NCBI RefSeq assembly: GCF_029239295.1
Contig: NZ_JAQZBC010000003.1
Location: forward strand, 62,001 to 126,000
Reading direction: 5' to 3'
Source: Sphingomonas sp.
Lineage (GTDB): Bacteria; Pseudomonadota; Alphaproteobacteria; Sphingomonadales; Sphingomonadaceae
Length of the DNA: 64,000 bases
Within the stretch, counting starts at the first letter, position 1. Each line of letters begins with the position of its first letter. This document shows positions 332 to 9,254 of the stretch, piece by piece. Under the pieces are notes generated by a model. It was given only the letters and a program-made list of their open reading frames with translations. It did no database searches and was not told the origin of the DNA. The position numbers and the translations under genes were made by a program.

Positions 332-1038
332 ATCAGATTCACCGTCGCAACGGCAACGAAGCCACCGTTGGCCCTGTCGGACATCCTCGTCGGATCAGAA
401 ATAATCCTCATCTCTAAAGGGGAAGGCTGGGTCGGTGCGCAGCATTGGAGAAGCCAGTTATCGCCTTCCTTGGAGACACAGGCCAGCGGGGTCTGCCGTC
501 AATTTCGAGGTACATTGACCGGAGGCATCGAAGGGCGAATTACTGCCCACTCTTGGACAGGGAAGCGGCCACGGTGACTCACTCCAGCTAAAAAAATTCG
601 AGGCGGTATGGCGTATGCTAACGCTGGCTCCCTACCCCCCGCCCGGGGGTTCGGCCAGAAACCGCCGGTCCGCTGTGGGGCGGATAAGGGAGGCCCCAAG
701 GGCTCAGACGTGCCTGCCTGATGCCCATTCCGCCACCTTGGTGGGAGTACGTTGCGGGAGTGGCGAGCTACAGCGCGAACGACTAGGGGATGGGACGGGC
801 GCGTCGCAGAGGGCAAGAGCACACCCGCATCAGGAGACCATCCTCGCTTGGATCGACAGGAACTGCTCCGCGACCGATCAGGCCGCGCGGTTGCTCCCGG
901 CGTTCAAGGCAACCTCGCATGTCCGGGGCGAACAGGGCGCGGCCATAGCACTCGTCTCTGTGCGTTGAGGGGGCGACCTTTGACCCTCTCGTGTCAGGCC
1001 GTGCTCGAAATCGTCCGGTTTCGAGCCCCCGGCCCAAG

Positions 1039-1106
1039 CTGTATCGGAAAGTAGCTTGACAGCAGTTCCGATCCACTTTCAATAACGAGCCTCGTTTTCG
1101 ATACAG
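1039..1106. promoter_or_regulatory. Candidate res-like site for the adjacent serine recombinase
   Basis: Nested inverted repeats: CTGTATCG(1039-1046)/CGATACAG(1099-1106); ATCGGAA(1043-1049)/TTCCGAT(1066-1072); AACGAG-C-CTCGTT(1084-1096), all just upstream of the ATG. Confidence 0.45.
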
Positions 1107-1113
1107 GGGACCT

Positions 1114-1692
1114 ATGGCTCGTACCTTCGCCTACCTTCGCGTCAGCACAGCCGACCAGACCACCGACAACCAGCGCCAGGAGATCGAAGCACTGGGCTTC
1201 GCCGTCGAGCCTCATCGCATCGTGGCCGAAACAGTATCGGGATCGGTCCCGGCGACGGAGCGGCGGGAGTTCTCCAAGCTACTGGACCGCCTGGAGCGCG
1301 ACGACGTCCTCATCGTCACCAAGTTGGATCGGCTCGGTCGCAATGCCATGGACGTCCGTGCGACGGTCGAGCGGCTCGCGAACGGCGGCGTTCATGTCCA
1401 TTGCCTGCAACTCGGCGGCACGGACCTAACCAGCGCAGCGGGCAAGATGATCATGGCAGTCATTTGTGCGATGGCAGAGTTCGAGCGCGACTTGCTCGTC
1501 GAGCGTACTCAGGCAGGCCTCGCTCGCGCGAAGACTGAGGGGAAGGTACTAGGGCGCCCGCAAGCGCTCACGAAGGAACAGCAGGACACCGTGAGGGCGC
1601 GGCGGGCGGCGGGCGCATCTCTCGGAGTTTTGGCGAAGGAATTCGGCGTGAGCCGGGCGGCAATTCAGCGGGTCGAGCAGCGCGCCTCCTAG
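1114..1692 (+). CDS. Serine recombinase (resolvase/invertase family, TnpR/Hin-like)
   Basis: YLRVSTADQTTDNQRQEI N-terminus, TKLDRLGRNAMD, MAEFERDLLVERTQAGLARAKTEGKVLGRP, C-terminal HTH. Confidence 0.95.
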   Translation: MARTFAYLRVSTADQTTDNQRQEIEALGFAVEPHRIVAETVSGSVPATERREFSKLLDRLERDDVLIVTKLDRLGRNAMDVRATVERLANGGVHVHCLQLGGTDLTSAAGKMIMAVICAMAEFERDLLVERTQAGLARAKTEGKVLGRPQALTKEQQDTVRARRAAGASLGVLAKEFGVSRAAIQRVEQRAS

Positions 1693-1748
1693 CGATCCAG
1701 CGCTCTGCCCTGCTTTTTTCCAAACAGCATTTTGGTTCAGGAGACGAC

Positions 1749-2456
1749 ATGAGTTCGAGGTTGTGGGGTCGGCGGGACCACGGGAAGCCAAATACTGACC
1801 TGGAGCGCGCGAAGCGGGCCGCTGATTGGAATACCCTGAGCGGGGCTTTCGCCGCAGGGATTCGTCAACTCGGGTACGAGCCCTGCCTCCCCGTTCTCCG
1901 CTTCGAGGTGAAAAGCCTGGAGCTGGCCGCGCGCACAAAAGAGCATGCTTGGTGGCCAGCGGATCGCGCCCAGCAGATCGAGCGCGAGCTGATGGAAGCT
2001 GACGAGGGGGGCGATGTGCGTGGGGTTCACCTTCATGGCGGGTTACCAAAGGGCAACGCCGCCCTGTCCACGGTGGCCCTTTTGGAGTGTGCGGCAGAGG
2101 GTGGCCCGGAAGCATCCATGGCCATGTTAGTGCGGGCGTTGGTGCATCTCCACGATGCGTGGGATCGGCCTTCTTGGGTGACGCGAGAAGTCGCGGAACG
2201 CGCCCCGGCTTGCATCGACAGCGTCCACCCGATCCTCGATGGCCTTCGCTGGCATCATGGGTGCAAGGACGTCCTCCCAATCTATGTCGTTAACGCCCCC
2301 ACGGCCGCGAGCCTTGAGGAACTCGGCAGTGTCCTTGCGCGAGATGCAGCCGAACTAATCGGAGGCTGGGTCCCCGTTTCCCTCTGTGCGCCTCGGCCGC
2401 ACCGGCATTGGGAAGCACGGCAGGCGCTCCGGCCCGGCCCGCAAAAGCGGAATTGA
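1749..2456 (+). CDS. Hypothetical protein of accessory region
   Basis: 235-aa ORF downstream of the recombinase; C-terminus runs into the left direct repeat. Confidence 0.6.
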   Translation: MSSRLWGRRDHGKPNTDLERAKRAADWNTLSGAFAAGIRQLGYEPCLPVLRFEVKSLELAARTKEHAWWPADRAQQIERELMEADEGGDVRGVHLHGGLPKGNAALSTVALLECAAEGGPEASMAMLVRALVHLHDAWDRPSWVTREVAERAPACIDSVHPILDGLRWHHGCKDVLPIYVVNAPTAASLEELGSVLARDAAELIGGWVPVSLCAPRPHRHWEARQALRPGPQKRN

Positions 2457-2590
2457 CACCGGCAAATCGCCAGCATTGTCGGGGTACCTGACGGGGTGCG
2501 CAGCCGGGTACTTGCGCTTCCGCACCTCCGGATAACTCTTTGTAACAACCAAGCTTTTCAGGACGCCGAGGCAGGTGGCGGAGATGCAGG
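2424..2590. repeat. Left copy of imperfect direct repeat containing a degenerate tRNA-Ser 3' end (att-like)
   Basis: Shares ctccggcccg.cccgcaaa, caaatcgccag.attgtcggggtac, gcgccgaggc.ggtggcggaga with 5073-5240. Confidence 0.8.
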
Positions 2591-2676
2591 GTATCTAACG
2601 GTCACAGGAAAGCTGGGGTTCTAGGGCGTGCGAAGAGCGCAGCCCTTGTTTCGACGCCTGACGCGACTTCGGATCT

Positions 2677-3273
2677 TTAATCGACTGGCGAGTACGGGCG
2701 CCAGACCTGAAGCTCATAGCGTCGGTCGAGGCCGAGAGCTTTTGAGTCAATGGATTGCACGACGACCTCGCCTTCCGGCCAGCCTTTTAGCTGGATGAAC
2801 GTAAAGCGGTCAGCGGTCGCAAACTCGCTCCACTCCCCAGCTAAGCTGGAGTGCACGGATACCTGAGGTGCGGGAACTACCTTCTCAAACTCGATGAACA
2901 CAAGGACGGCCTCATTCCGCATCGTGCCGCCGTTGTTCACATACCAAGCGTAATAGGCGACATTCTCTGAAGAGTCAGCGAGAGAGACAGACAGTTCACC
3001 GTCGGCGCCCTTGGAAAATGTGAGGTCTGCCCTCGAAGAAAGCGCAATCTTACCTCCTGCCTCGCGGAACTCTCTGCGACCTCTGAACCAAAACTCAGTC
3101 CATAACGCGAGCGTGGCCCCGCCTAAAGCAAAGAACGCGAAAGCTACTGCGTCGGACAAGCCAAGGTGGGAAATTACCCTCCATCCGGAAACAAGGAACT
3201 TGTCCCAACCCTTATCCGCTGCGAATTCTTCAATTGCCTTAGAAAATACAGCGAGAGCTACAAAACTCATCAC
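2677..3273 (-). CDS. Hypothetical membrane-anchored protein
   Basis: 198-aa ORF; N-terminal hydrophobic segments (AVAFAFFALGGATLALW), soluble C-terminal domain. Confidence 0.65.
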   Translation of the reverse strand: MMSFVALAVFSKAIEEFAADKGWDKFLVSGWRVISHLGLSDAVAFAFFALGGATLALWTEFWFRGRREFREAGGKIALSSRADLTFSKGADGELSVSLADSSENVAYYAWYVNNGGTMRNEAVLVFIEFEKVVPAPQVSVHSSLAGEWSEFATADRFTFIQLKGWPEGEVVVQSIDSKALGLDRRYELQVWRPYSPVD

Positions 3274-3358
3274 AGCGAAGGCACAACTGACTCCATAGCG
3301 AAGTGTGGCTTGCTTTCTGTTGCTAATGGGACGTCCCTTTAGATGCTGCCGTCTACGG

Positions 3359-3757
3359 TCAAGGATGAAGCCGCCCGCGAGCTTTTGCTTTCTGCGTCAG
3401 CCGCTTGGAAATCAACTTCCACTTCTTCTCTTCGTGGGGCGTGTAATCAGCCAGGGCGTGGGCTGGGTTCGCAAGCGCGTCCTCGGTGACTTGCAAGGGA
3501 TCGTCGCGGCACTCCACAACCTCCTCCCCGAACTCGCCAACGGTCACCCCATAAACCGCCCCCGAGAGATTGCCGGTTTTTGTGTAAAGAGCGTGGGAGG
3601 TTGCCGCATCAGTGAGCGAGGCTCGGTCAACTGACATCAACCCTGCGTCTTTTGGCTGGGGCTTGAAGCGGTCGCTAGCTGGCTCGCCATCGTAAATACA
3701 GTTCGGATGAATCTGCCTAAACAGCACTTCATCTGCGTTCGTGAGCGGCTCACCCAT
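3359..3757 (-). CDS. Uncharacterised small protein, second gene of a coupled module (IHPN..YDGEPASDRFKPQPKDAGLMSVDR motif)
   Basis: 132-aa ORF; start overlaps upstream stop by 8 bp (ATGGGTGA); resembles a family of small unknown proteins recalled with H-P-x(3)-DG...S..F.P...D.G.LSV. Confidence 0.7.
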   Translation of the reverse strand: MGEPLTNADEVLFRQIHPNCIYDGEPASDRFKPQPKDAGLMSVDRASLTDAATSHALYTKTGNLSGAVYGVTVGEFGEEVVECRDDPLQVTEDALANPAHALADYTPHEEKKWKLISKRLTQKAKARGRLHP

Positions 3758-4898
3758 TGGCGCTCATCCTGCTGTCGAAAGCAGACAAGAAAACATCATC
3801 CACAGAATTGAACTCTTCGGGCTCAAGCTCACCAGAGCCATTTATCTCAATGCCGTACATCTCCACGCCACCGACAGCATTTAATTCGACAGAATAGTCC
3901 CATCCGCCGTGTTCAAAATCGATTAGGATGCCGCCAGCCTCGGTAGGGAAGAGGCGGAATGCCGCACAATAGGACGTCCGCTTCGACAGGAACGACTCTG
4001 CCGCATTCAACGCGTCGTCGGTAATCTGGAGGCCCAAGCCATCGTGCCATCCCGCGTCCAGCGCTCGGATCTCATCGAGACGTTTGCGACACTTCGACAG
4101 TGCAACGCTCACTTCGCTATCGACAACGGCGATCTCGAATACATCCGCCACCCTGCGGAAATGGTCTTGACTATCGAGTTCGACTAATAGCTCAAATTGC
4201 ACGTCCTGTTCAAGACTACCGTCGAAATCCTCCCTGATTTGCAGGGGGTCGACCGGGATTACGATGTCTCCATGTTCAGTCGTTCGGACTGTAACCACAC
4301 CTTCATACCCACTTTTGATGTGGGTGCCGATTAACTCTCCGATGCCTTCAAAGCGCGTCTGATAGGTCTCGCGCGCGCCGGTTATCAGTTGCTTACGGCG
4401 GTACGCATCGAGCGAGACCACCTTGCCGCTCGCCCGATCAGGTATCTCAATTTTCTCATTGTCGCGGAGCCCGGCGCCAAAGCGATTAAGTGCGCGAACC
4501 TTCTCGGAGCTCAATGCGGAGACACGCCCGGACTGACCTTCAATCAAAGCAACCACGTCGCCGTACGCAGACTCAACAATCTCCTCGATCTCGTCAGCGA
4601 AGCCAGGGAGATTTACCTGCGCACTGTTTCGGTTCCACTCAAGCTTCGGGATCGCGCTACCGTTTTCAATGGTGATGAGATCGAAGGCGAGACTTTTGTC
4701 GAAGCCCTTCGGAACCCGAGCGCGGTCCGCATGGCGGCGACGCCACTCATCTTTTGCGTACGAAACGAGGAGATCACGGAAGGCTGGAAGATCAGACAGC
4801 ACCTCGACGGGCAGACGCGCGTTGCGAAAACGGCTTCCCTTGTAGTGAAGGCTGAAAATCGTCGGTTCGTCCGGCATTGGTTCCTCGGTGGGCGGCAT
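3750..4898 (-). CDS. Uncharacterised protein, first gene of a coupled module
   Basis: Long ORF (track extends to 4940 with a TTG start; ATG at 4898 preferred); C-terminal ALDAGWHDG.G...AFRLFPTEAGGILIDFEHGGWDYSVEL. Confidence 0.75.
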   Translation of the reverse strand: MPPTEEPMPDEPTIFSLHYKGSRFRNARLPVEVLSDLPAFRDLLVSYAKDEWRRRHADRARVPKGFDKSLAFDLITIENGSAIPKLEWNRNSAQVNLPGFADEIEEIVESAYGDVVALIEGQSGRVSALSSEKVRALNRFGAGLRDNEKIEIPDRASGKVVSLDAYRRKQLITGARETYQTRFEGIGELIGTHIKSGYEGVVTVRTTEHGDIVIPVDPLQIREDFDGSLEQDVQFELLVELDSQDHFRRVADVFEIAVVDSEVSVALSKCRKRLDEIRALDAGWHDGLGLQITDDALNAAESFLSKRTSYCAAFRLFPTEAGGILIDFEHGGWDYSVELNAVGGVEMYGIEINGSGELEPEEFNSVDDVFLSAFDSRMSANG

Positions 4899-5072: not shown

Positions 5073-5240
5073 GCCGCTCCGGCCCGACCCGCAAAGCGAA
5101 ATTGATGCCGCCAAATCGCCAGTATTGTCGGGGTACGTGATTGGGGTACGCAGCGGGGTACACCGCTCCTCCGAACCTCGGGCTAACCCTATGGAAAAAC
5201 AATGTTTTTAAGGGCGCCGAGGCGGGTGGCGGAGACGGAG
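5073..5240. repeat. Right copy of direct repeat, overlapping the 3' end of tRNA-Ser
   Basis: Aligns with 2424-2590 by eye; contains three GGGGTAC motifs and the tRNA CCA/acceptor end. Confidence 0.8.
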
Positions 5241-5316
5241 GGATTCGAACCCTCGGTACGGTTTCCCGTACGACGCTTTAGCAAAGCGTTGGTTTCAGCC
5301 ACTCACCCACGTCTCC
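5227..5316 (-). tRNA. tRNA-Ser (GCT anticodon)
   Basis: Reverse complement GGAGACGTGGGTGAGTGGCTGAAACCAACGCTTTGCTAAAGCGT...GAGGGTTCGAATCCCTCCGTCTCCGCCA: acceptor stem, long variable arm, T-arm, encoded CCA. Confidence 0.95.
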
Positions 5317-5495
5317 GGGCCTGGCGGAACGGCGCCTATAGCGAGGTGCGGGAAGGCGATCAACAGGCTGCTGCGGGGAAATACTCGTTCGCCCTGCCTC
5401 ACCATCGAGTCGATCCGCCGCGCCATTCATTGCCGCGCAAGCCGACTATCCGTTATGGTACGGTGAAACCGGGCGTGCCCAGGGGGTAAGTGACA

Positions 5496-6311
5496 ATGCG
5501 CAAGTTCATGATCGCGATGGGACTGATCGCCACGATGGTGTCGGGCGTCGCGCCGGCGCAGGTCCGTACCATCGACCCGAACCAGCAGATCGACAGCGAC
5601 CTGGACGGACCGCGCGTGCCGCCGCCGCCGGCGCGCACGCCCGCCCCGGCGGACCGCGACCAAAGCTATCGCGAGCCGACCTATTCCGACCCCGCCCCGG
5701 CCGATCAGGACGCGCCGCCGCCGCTGGAGGCACCGCTCCCCGCGCCTGCACCGACGCCGACGCAGAGCCGTTCGGCGCCGCTGGTCGGAACCGTGGACCC
5801 GCAGGCGCAGGCGACCACCGATGCTGCCGCCACGTTCAAGCGCGACGATCTGATCGGCGCCGGCGAAGGCGTGTTCGGCAAGGGGGCGGAGGGCTTTGGC
5901 TCGCTGATCGAGAAGATCCTGGCCGAGCAGGGTGAGCCGAACGCCTATATCGCTGGGCGAGAGGCGGCAGGCGCGTTCGTCCTGGGGCTGCGCTATGGTT
6001 CGGGCATCATGACCCACAAGGTCGAGGGGCAGATGCCGGTGTATTGGACTGGCCCGTCGGTTGGCTTCGACGTGGGCGGTGACGCGAACAAGGTCTTCGT
6101 GCTGGTCTACAATTTGTACGACACTGCCGAACTGTATCGCCGCTTTCCGGCAGCAGAGGGCCGGCTGTACTTCGTCGGTGGCTTTGCCGCGACATATCTG
6201 CGGCGCGGCAACGTGGTGCTGATCCCGGTCCGGCTTGGCGTGGGATACCGTGCCGGCATCAACGTCGGCTATATGAAGTTCACTCAGAAATCGAACTGGT
6301 TGCCGTTCTGA
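5496..6311 (+). CDS. DUF1134 / EipA-family envelope protein
   Basis: Signal peptide, Pro-rich linker, then YVAGREAAGAFVLGLRYGSG-like domain with GPSVGFDVGGDANKVFVLVYNL. Confidence 0.88.
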   Translation: MRKFMIAMGLIATMVSGVAPAQVRTIDPNQQIDSDLDGPRVPPPPARTPAPADRDQSYREPTYSDPAPADQDAPPPLEAPLPAPAPTPTQSRSAPLVGTVDPQAQATTDAAATFKRDDLIGAGEGVFGKGAEGFGSLIEKILAEQGEPNAYIAGREAAGAFVLGLRYGSGIMTHKVEGQMPVYWTGPSVGFDVGGDANKVFVLVYNLYDTAELYRRFPAAEGRLYFVGGFAATYLRRGNVVLIPVRLGVGYRAGINVGYMKFTQKSNWLPF

Positions 6312-7544: not shown

Positions 7545-9254
7545 TCAGATCTCGACCTCGTCGAGCTTCGCCAGTTCACGATATTTGGCGCGCAGGCTGA
7601 CCTTGTCGATCTTCTCCGTGCCGAGGCGCGGGAGCGGATCGTCGGCCAGCCAGATGCGCTGCGGCACCTTGAAGGCCGCGATATGCTGCGCGAGGAACGC
7701 CCACAGATCCTCGACCGTCACCGCGCCGATCTTGCGCAGGTGGACGACCGCGCCGGGCACTTCGCCATACTTCTCATCAGGAAGCCCGAACACCGCCGCC
7801 TCGGCGACATCCGGATGCTGGTACAGCGCGTCCTCAACCTCCTGGCAGCTGATGTTCTCACCGCCGCGGATGATGATGTCCTTCTTGCGGTCGACGATGA
7901 AAAGATAACCATCCTCATCGAGGTAACCGATGTCGCCGGTGCGGAAATAACCGTCGGCGGTGAAGGCGGCAGCAGTCGCGTCGGGATTGCCCCAATATTC
8001 CTGGAAATTGGCGGCGGAGCGGATCGCCACTTCGCCGCGCTCGCCCTGCGGCACCGGCTTTCCGGCGTCGTCGAGGATCGCCAGATCGACCAGCGGCATC
8101 GACGGCCGACCAGCCGAGTTCGGCTTCGCGAGGTAATTGGCGCGCCAATTGCCGGTGCCGACGCCGTTCGTCTCGGTCAGGCCGTAACCGATGAGCGGCT
8201 TGCCCTCCATCTCCTGCTCGATCCGCTTCACATGCTCGACCGGGCGCGGCGCACCGCCGGCGGCGATGTCGGCGACGCTCGACAGATCATATTTGTGCCG
8301 GTTCGGGTGGTTGAGCATTTCGAAGCTCATCAGCGGCACGCCGACGAAATAGGTGATCTTTTCCTTTTCGATCAGGCGCATCGCCTCCTCGGCATCCCAC
8401 TTCGGCATCAGCACCAGCTTGCGACCGATGGCGAACGACTGGAGGAACACCGGCACTTCCGCGGTCACGTGGAACAGCGGCACGTTGAGCAGCGTCGAGG
8501 GCTGAAGATCGCTCGTTGCGGTCCCGTCCTGTGCGCTGATCGCCAGCATCATCAAGGCGGAGCCAAGATAGTTGAACACGCCCTGCGTTACCTGGCGATG
8601 AGTCGACAGCGCGCCCTTCGACTGGCCGGTCGAGCCCGAGGTGAAGAGGATGGTGGCGTGATCGTCCGGGCCGATGTCCGGCATCGTCGCGGTACCGGTG
8701 CCGCGGTCGAGGATCGGCGCCAGCGCAGCATCGATCGCCTGCAGATCATCGAATTCGACGACGGTGGCCGACAGATCCTTCAAGGCTGTCAGGCGACGGC
8801 AGCGCGGCGGATCGGCGAACACCAGCGTGCAGCCGACATCGTCGACACCGGCCTGCAATTCCTCCGCCTGCCACCAGCCGTTCAGCAGCGTGGCGACGCC
8901 GCCCGCCATCAGCACGCCCATGTAGATGATGATCCACGACGGGGAATTGCGCGCGGCGATCCCGATCCGGTCGCCCTTCTTCACGCCAAATCCGCTTACC
9001 AGCGCATCGGCCACCTTCTGCGCGCGGCCATACACGTCGGCATAGGTCAGGCGCTCATCACCTGCGATGAGGAATTCGGTGCCCTCATGCTGCTGCGCAT
9101 AATGAGCGAAATAGGCCGGCAGGGTCGGCGGCGCGCCAGCGATGATCGGCAGTGTCTGGCCGAAACGTTCGATCGAGCCGAGCGCAAGCGGACCGCCCTC
9201 TCCCGTCAACGCGGCCATCGTCGCGTCCATCTTGAGGTCCAGTTCGGTCTTCAT
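7545..9254 (-). CDS. AMP-dependent synthetase/acyl-CoA ligase
   Basis: [68 protein letters not shown]. Confidence 0.95.

Follow-up and report, generated by a model that had tools for sequence, protein, structure and literature searches.

Among the candidate defence systems listed in PADLOC-DB 2.0.0, the closest to the locus described here is PDC-M32, a two-gene module reported in Sinorhizobium meliloti prophages (PMC12429752). PDC candidates originate from guilt-by-embedding (Payne et al., preprint 10.1101/2024.01.29.577857, as cited in PMC12255303) and mostly lack validation (PMC12988326); two other PADLOC candidates showed no activity when assayed in the native host (PMC12409345). In the literature searched, one paper, the prophage report, names PDC-M32, and no published anti-phage activity of the module was found, in agreement with the initial annotation of our locus, which had called the pair uncharacterised. 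Also relevant for comparison are DarTG2, a toxin-antitoxin (TA) system embedded in a type I restriction-modification (R-M) operon (PMC12255303), and the cis-mobilisable elements known as CIMEs, whose accretion has been described (PMC5704250).

The window, i.e. the whole stretch of 64,000 nucleotides of Sphingomonas sp. DNA that was analysed, carries a copy of PDC-M32 in which both proteins are full length and the gene order is identical to that of the catalogued module. The features of the locus are as follows.

2425..2599, no strand: internal diverged att-like copy, the left boundary of the cassette (direct repeats)
2677..3273, minus strand: third cassette gene, orphan cargo, 198 aa, with two hydrophobic stretches (ORF)
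3359..3757, minus strand: gene B, ATG start, 132 aa (PADLOC PDLC04579, AF2, residue conservation)
3750..3757, minus strand: overlap of the A stop and the B start, ATGGGTGA, 8 nt (read from sequence)
3750..4877, minus strand: gene A, 375 aa from the likely start ATG 4877 (PADLOC PDLC04577, AF2)
5075..5250, no strand: right att-like region, comprising the tRNA-Ser 3' end and three arm-type GGGTAC repeats (direct repeats)
5227..5316, minus strand: tRNA-Ser(GCT), intact integration target (ARAGORN)

Protein A was matched by the PDC-M32A model PDLC04577 with E 3.1e-147 (residues 25-394 of the 396-aa reading against positions 4-379 of the 384-position profile), and protein B, overlapping A by 8 nt, by the PDC-M32B model PDLC04579 with E 4.7e-31; by this wide margin the pair is a PDC-M32 module. 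It shows no difference in kind from the catalogued system, and what sets the window copy apart is its setting, an integrase-less cassette at tRNA-Ser with an extra orphan gene encoding two hydrophobic stretches. In PHROGs the families of A and B are phrog_30544 and phrog_31579, both listed as unknown. Sequence searches of Pfam, NCBIfam and PDB gave no significant match for either protein, and neither matched a housekeeping family; a clear match of that kind had been named beforehand as speaking against a defence reading. The initial annotation had further proposed the pair as a candidate for a new defence, conflict or stress system, with no motif assignable to a known defence family. Neither the novelty nor the lack of a known family is supported, because PADLOC already lists both proteins as PDC-M32A and PDC-M32B and the module figures in the prophage report (PMC12429752); the same matches lend support to its hunch that the pair is a reasonable defence candidate.

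Both open reading frames were located on the minus strand where they had been placed initially, together with their 8-bp overlap ATGGGTGA, from which we infer translational coupling; the length of 132 aa for B (3359-3757) was confirmed and the motifs quoted for both proteins were found in their sequences. The length of ~380 aa given for A needs revision. Three in-frame starts are available, TTG 4940 (396 aa, the longest), ATG 4898 (the start behind that length) and ATG 4877. The last is the likely one, since it is preceded by GAGGAA and yields 375 aa, and the Erythrobacter orthologue is equally long. Comparison with the Aquibium orthologue gave dN 0.10 and dS 1.1 (dN/dS ~0.09) for A and dN 0.12 and dS 2.0 (dN/dS ~0.06) for B, so that both genes are under purifying selection. 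No sigma-70-like promoter was recognised in the cassette, a result of little weight in bacteria of this group.

B homologues were collected with a B-profile scan of one genome collection (22 loci) and from three viral contigs (L016-L018), making 25 in total with some near-duplicates. The 22 loci belong to proteobacteria, Acidobacteriota-type MAGs, myxobacteria, actinobacteria, Riflebacteria, Planctomycetes and Bacteroidetes. The proposal of a recurring coupled pair was borne out, as an ORF with the GW domain (the C-terminal domain of A) stands directly upstream of B in all 25 homologues fetched and overlaps it by 1-26 nt in 22 of them, a count in which small overlaps are favoured by our picking the B start codons nearest to the end of A. 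Among 399 unselected genomes of the phylum, nine B-profile matches and ten strong GW-profile places were found; B lay beside a GW match in nine of nine cases, and one strong GW gene (L048) stood without B. Gene A was also detected on five plasmid records (Rhizobium, Limnohabitans, two of Rhodococcus, and Sinomonas); a B-aligned gene overlaps or abuts it on all four plasmids examined, and searches with A and with B independently matched the same plasmids. The neighbourhood of A and B is near-obligate, with homologues nearly always, and not rarely, adjacent; given the low dN/dS values and the recurrence of the same neighbours in many phyla, the pairing is not due to chance. Its occurrence is sporadic rather than that of a non-mobile gene pair: the PADLOC PDC-M32 model was found in one of 385 genomes of the class and matches came from two of 151 relatives, one of these being a weak match (E 1e-5). 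No close relative of A was present among INPHARED phage records, nor did one turn up when IMG/VR was first scanned with A.

The mobile cassette at a tRNA, postulated earlier, was confirmed by tRNA-Ser(GCT) at 5227-5316 and by two long direct repeats, 2425-2599 and 5075-5250, which agree at 80% over 177 aligned columns (77% and 85% in the ungapped segments). The 2.65-kb segment between the repeats has three recognised genes, no integrase or transfer genes, and a GC content of 54-59% against 62-68% around it. In relatives, tRNA-Ser lies beside a DUF1134-type gene (5490-6311, on the 5' side of the tRNA) in 28 of 29 loci, and the arm region was seen only in this genome among the relatives compared. 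The match of the flanking gene and of the tRNA points to Sphingomonas as the probable host. At C31:58497-58515 the 3' end of tRNA-Ser is repeated, matching at 19/19 positions; just inside this copy lie GGGTAC repeats and a gene for a 455-aa DUF6538 and tyrosine integrase protein (L006:6635-8002; C31:58636-60003). An integrase island of ~6 kb and the cassette thus stand in tandem at tRNA-Ser, spanning 8.7 kb in all. This integrase possibly acts on both att-like regions. The island also carries a serine resolvase/invertase gene (window 1114-1692, plus strand) and, after the integrase, a large ORF (L006:7957-9441; C31:59957-61441) with no match in Pfam or PDB, in which LDYKAFQPR and IHDSF are reminiscent of family-A polymerase motifs. 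Like a CIME, the cassette has no integrase, is bordered on both sides by att-like repeats and has an integrase-bearing element beside it at one tRNA; on the other hand, the core of its internal att-like copy is diverged. The cassette resembles a CIME accreted with the integrase island, and the carrying element is small and probably decayed. The third gene (2677-3273) had no match in Pfam, PADLOC, PHROGs, NCBIfam or plasmids; no relatives of it were found and it is absent from the homologous loci, so the idea that it belongs to the conserved module was rejected.

Inspection of genome context, recommended by the initial annotation, found homologues inside hsd operons and beside type III, type IIG, BrxL and type I genes. 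In four genomes the pair is situated inside a type I restriction operon in the order hsdM-A-B-(x)-hsdS, several of the joints being 4-nt overlaps; HsdM and HsdR of one genome were confirmed against solved structures and its HsdS by Pfam, for the other three genomes the assignment came from close sequence similarity, and at L121, where the contig ends within A, only the order A, B, hsdS was seen and hsdM was not. At L120 B and hsdS are separated by a RhuM-type gene (7919-8437, plus strand), and in the hsd operon of L118 hsdS and hsdR have one more gene between them (3466-4485, minus strand). Elsewhere the pair adjoins type III R-M (L020), type IIG (L024) and BrxL (L028) genes, has type I R-M within 8 kb (L036, L038), and is found near type I R-M on the Sinomonas plasmid. 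At L056 a nucleotidyltransferase and HepT-like pair (2174-3056, plus strand) directly follows A and B. The defence context is strong, though it is not a measured enrichment, because the scan was directed at large neighbour genes and included no matched null.

An R-M accessory, where A and B would regulate the neighbouring enzyme or work together with it (reading DNA ends or modifications, for instance), would also account for the four genomes in which 4-nt overlaps tie the pair in between hsdM and hsdS, and for the adjacency to type III and IIG R-M. We regard this as improbable: the window cassette and several plasmids carry the pair without an R-M partner, and the R-M types nearby vary (I, IIG, III, BREX). 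With neither a constant partner nor a constant type, the pair fits better as cargo than as a dedicated R-M subunit. DarTG2 likewise resides inside hsd operons, although, compared by operon position, it is placed between hsdS and hsdR and the PDC-M32 homologues between hsdM and hsdS; because this TA system is embedded too (PMC12255303), hsd embedding does not separate defence from a TA function. Equally doubtful is a non-defence role as a metabolic or stress pair, linked to islands only through mobility. Several loci (L023, L026, L029) had no recognised defence gene among the neighbours scanned, but R-M operon embedding, phage and prophage carriage, sporadic distribution and the AbiLi-like ATPase partner of a related module (see below) all weigh against such a role.

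Foldseek analysis of both predicted structures, also recommended initially, returned suggestive matches for A and no PDB fold match for B. The AF2 model of A (mean pLDDT 89.2) comprises an N-terminal alpha/beta domain, an OB-fold-like middle domain (~168-251) and the C-terminal GW domain (~254-373), in which Pro and Gly are invariant and Trp near-invariant. The model gave repeated OB-containing matches (Stn1, RPA32, aaRS, RNase R), and residues 168-223 weakly matched an IF-1 profile (E 0.79). The assignment of the middle domain as OB-like is suggestive, since the best Foldseek E value was 5.5e-3 with low TM, the latter because only one domain aligns.

Protein B was modelled from 24 sequences with a mean pLDDT of 95.4 as a confident single-domain alpha/beta fold, whose best match among viral models was an unnamed 149-aa protein (E 0.012). 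Its conserved residues are R14 and H100, present in 23 of 23 B and B-like proteins, and S42 and F31 (22 of 23 each), with such agreement favoured by the picking of B-like members by position and eye. In the model, R14 is on strand 1 (E11-16), S42 on strand 2 (E40-45) and H100 on the last strand (E100-104). Proteins of the ADP-ribosyltransferase-like group (RES, Tpt1, ART) have an Arg on strand 1 and a Ser on strand 2, while strand 5 carries a Glu or some other residue. The placement of R14 and S42 recalls these folds, whereas B has H100 where Glu is expected; a viral Tpt1-type model was matched very weakly (TM 0.40, E 1.7, prob 0.23) and no such fold was among the PDB top 50 for B, so the predicted likeness is to be taken as a lead only.

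The C-terminal part of A and the protein B recur with other partners. The upstream protein consists of hardly more than the GW domain at L023, L026/L027, L029, L031, L033 and L040, and on the viral contigs L017/L018 it combines GW with zinc-ribbon-like CxxC pairs, read by eye and with weak support in Pfam. Three-gene modules headed by TIGR04255 proteins, with a B-like gene last, were found at weak GW matches (L050, L051, L054); at L055 GW-like and B-like genes stand behind a first protein not assigned to a family, and at L053 behind an AbiLi-like ATPase (869-3294, minus strand). Profile-profile comparison of the two module sets, based on small and diverse profiles, gave E 6.5e-14 for GW and 1.5e-7 for B, which supports common descent of each across modules. 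Starting from TIGR04255, a GW-like gene was found downstream in ~6 of 21 loci, in most of them with a B-like gene; the TIGR04255 subset heading such modules includes L050, L051, L054, L097, L106, L107, L113, L114 and L116. The downstream genes of these modules of the TIGR04255 sporadic family are homologous to the GW domain of A and to B by profile comparison, whereas the first protein is separate, 250-280 aa long, and without detectable relation to the N-terminal half of A when the two were compared. Similarly, no TIGR04255 character was detectable in the upstream partners at L055 and L031, and Pfam gave no support for a suspected AF2212-like antitoxin at the N-terminus of L040. The likeness to AbiL comes from the one locus, L053, in which the AbiLi-like ATPase heads a GW and B-like pair; the window module has no ATPase. 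On these comparisons the GW+B core is modular and its predicted partners are exchangeable. TIGR04255 was not mentioned in the literature searched.

The short-A loci (L023, L026, L029, L031, L033, L040), each with two small overlapping or abutting genes, bring to mind a TA-like stabilisation module, where the GW domain of A would neutralise a toxin B until element loss or infection frees it, the role being maybe element maintenance. Variable N-terminal domains joined to a constant, partner-binding C-terminus are an antitoxin-like layout, the pair is carried on plasmids and islands, and TA loci occur nearby. Nevertheless, we consider such a module unlikely, as no toxin family or fold was found for B in Pfam, NCBIfam or PDB and A is in most loci much larger than usual antitoxins.

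The evidence on balance leans towards A and B being a PDC-M32 module that serves as an accessory immunity unit of two genes and travels as cargo on an integrase-less CIME-like element; for its mechanism we propose A as sensor and scaffold and B as effector. A defence role of the pair is in itself likely, and its anti-phage function is what we infer from the context above; the division of labour, in which A senses and holds and B acts, is put forward tentatively. In this scheme A would control B: the N-terminal half and the OB-like domain of A would recognise either a nucleic acid of phage origin or a state damaged by infection, while its GW domain would hold B. Activated or released by A, B might then act on or bind a nucleotide-like ligand through a putative R14/S42/H100 pocket. 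In other modules a zinc ribbon, a TIGR04255 protein or an AbiLi-like ATPase would replace the sensor half, and GW+B would stay.

PDC-M32, apparently catalogued only and never studied, hereby gains a testable anatomy, in which the GW+B core stays constant, the front ends are exchanged and three residues offer themselves for mutation, and the natural minimal versions (GW of ~100 aa and B of ~130 aa), such as the Roseateles-type pair, are suited to structure work. It is possible, if still speculative, that GW+B represents a general immune adaptor-effector core, in which B, having no solved relative, would carry an R-S-H active or ligand site, and which would be combined with sensors of at least four kinds, namely an N-OB fusion, a zinc-ribbon fusion, a TIGR04255 protein and an AbiLi-like ATPase; PDC-M32, some TIGR04255 and some AbiL-type loci would then form one modular defence superfamily. 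Should the core be immune, the TIGR04255 family would gain a hypothesis for its function.
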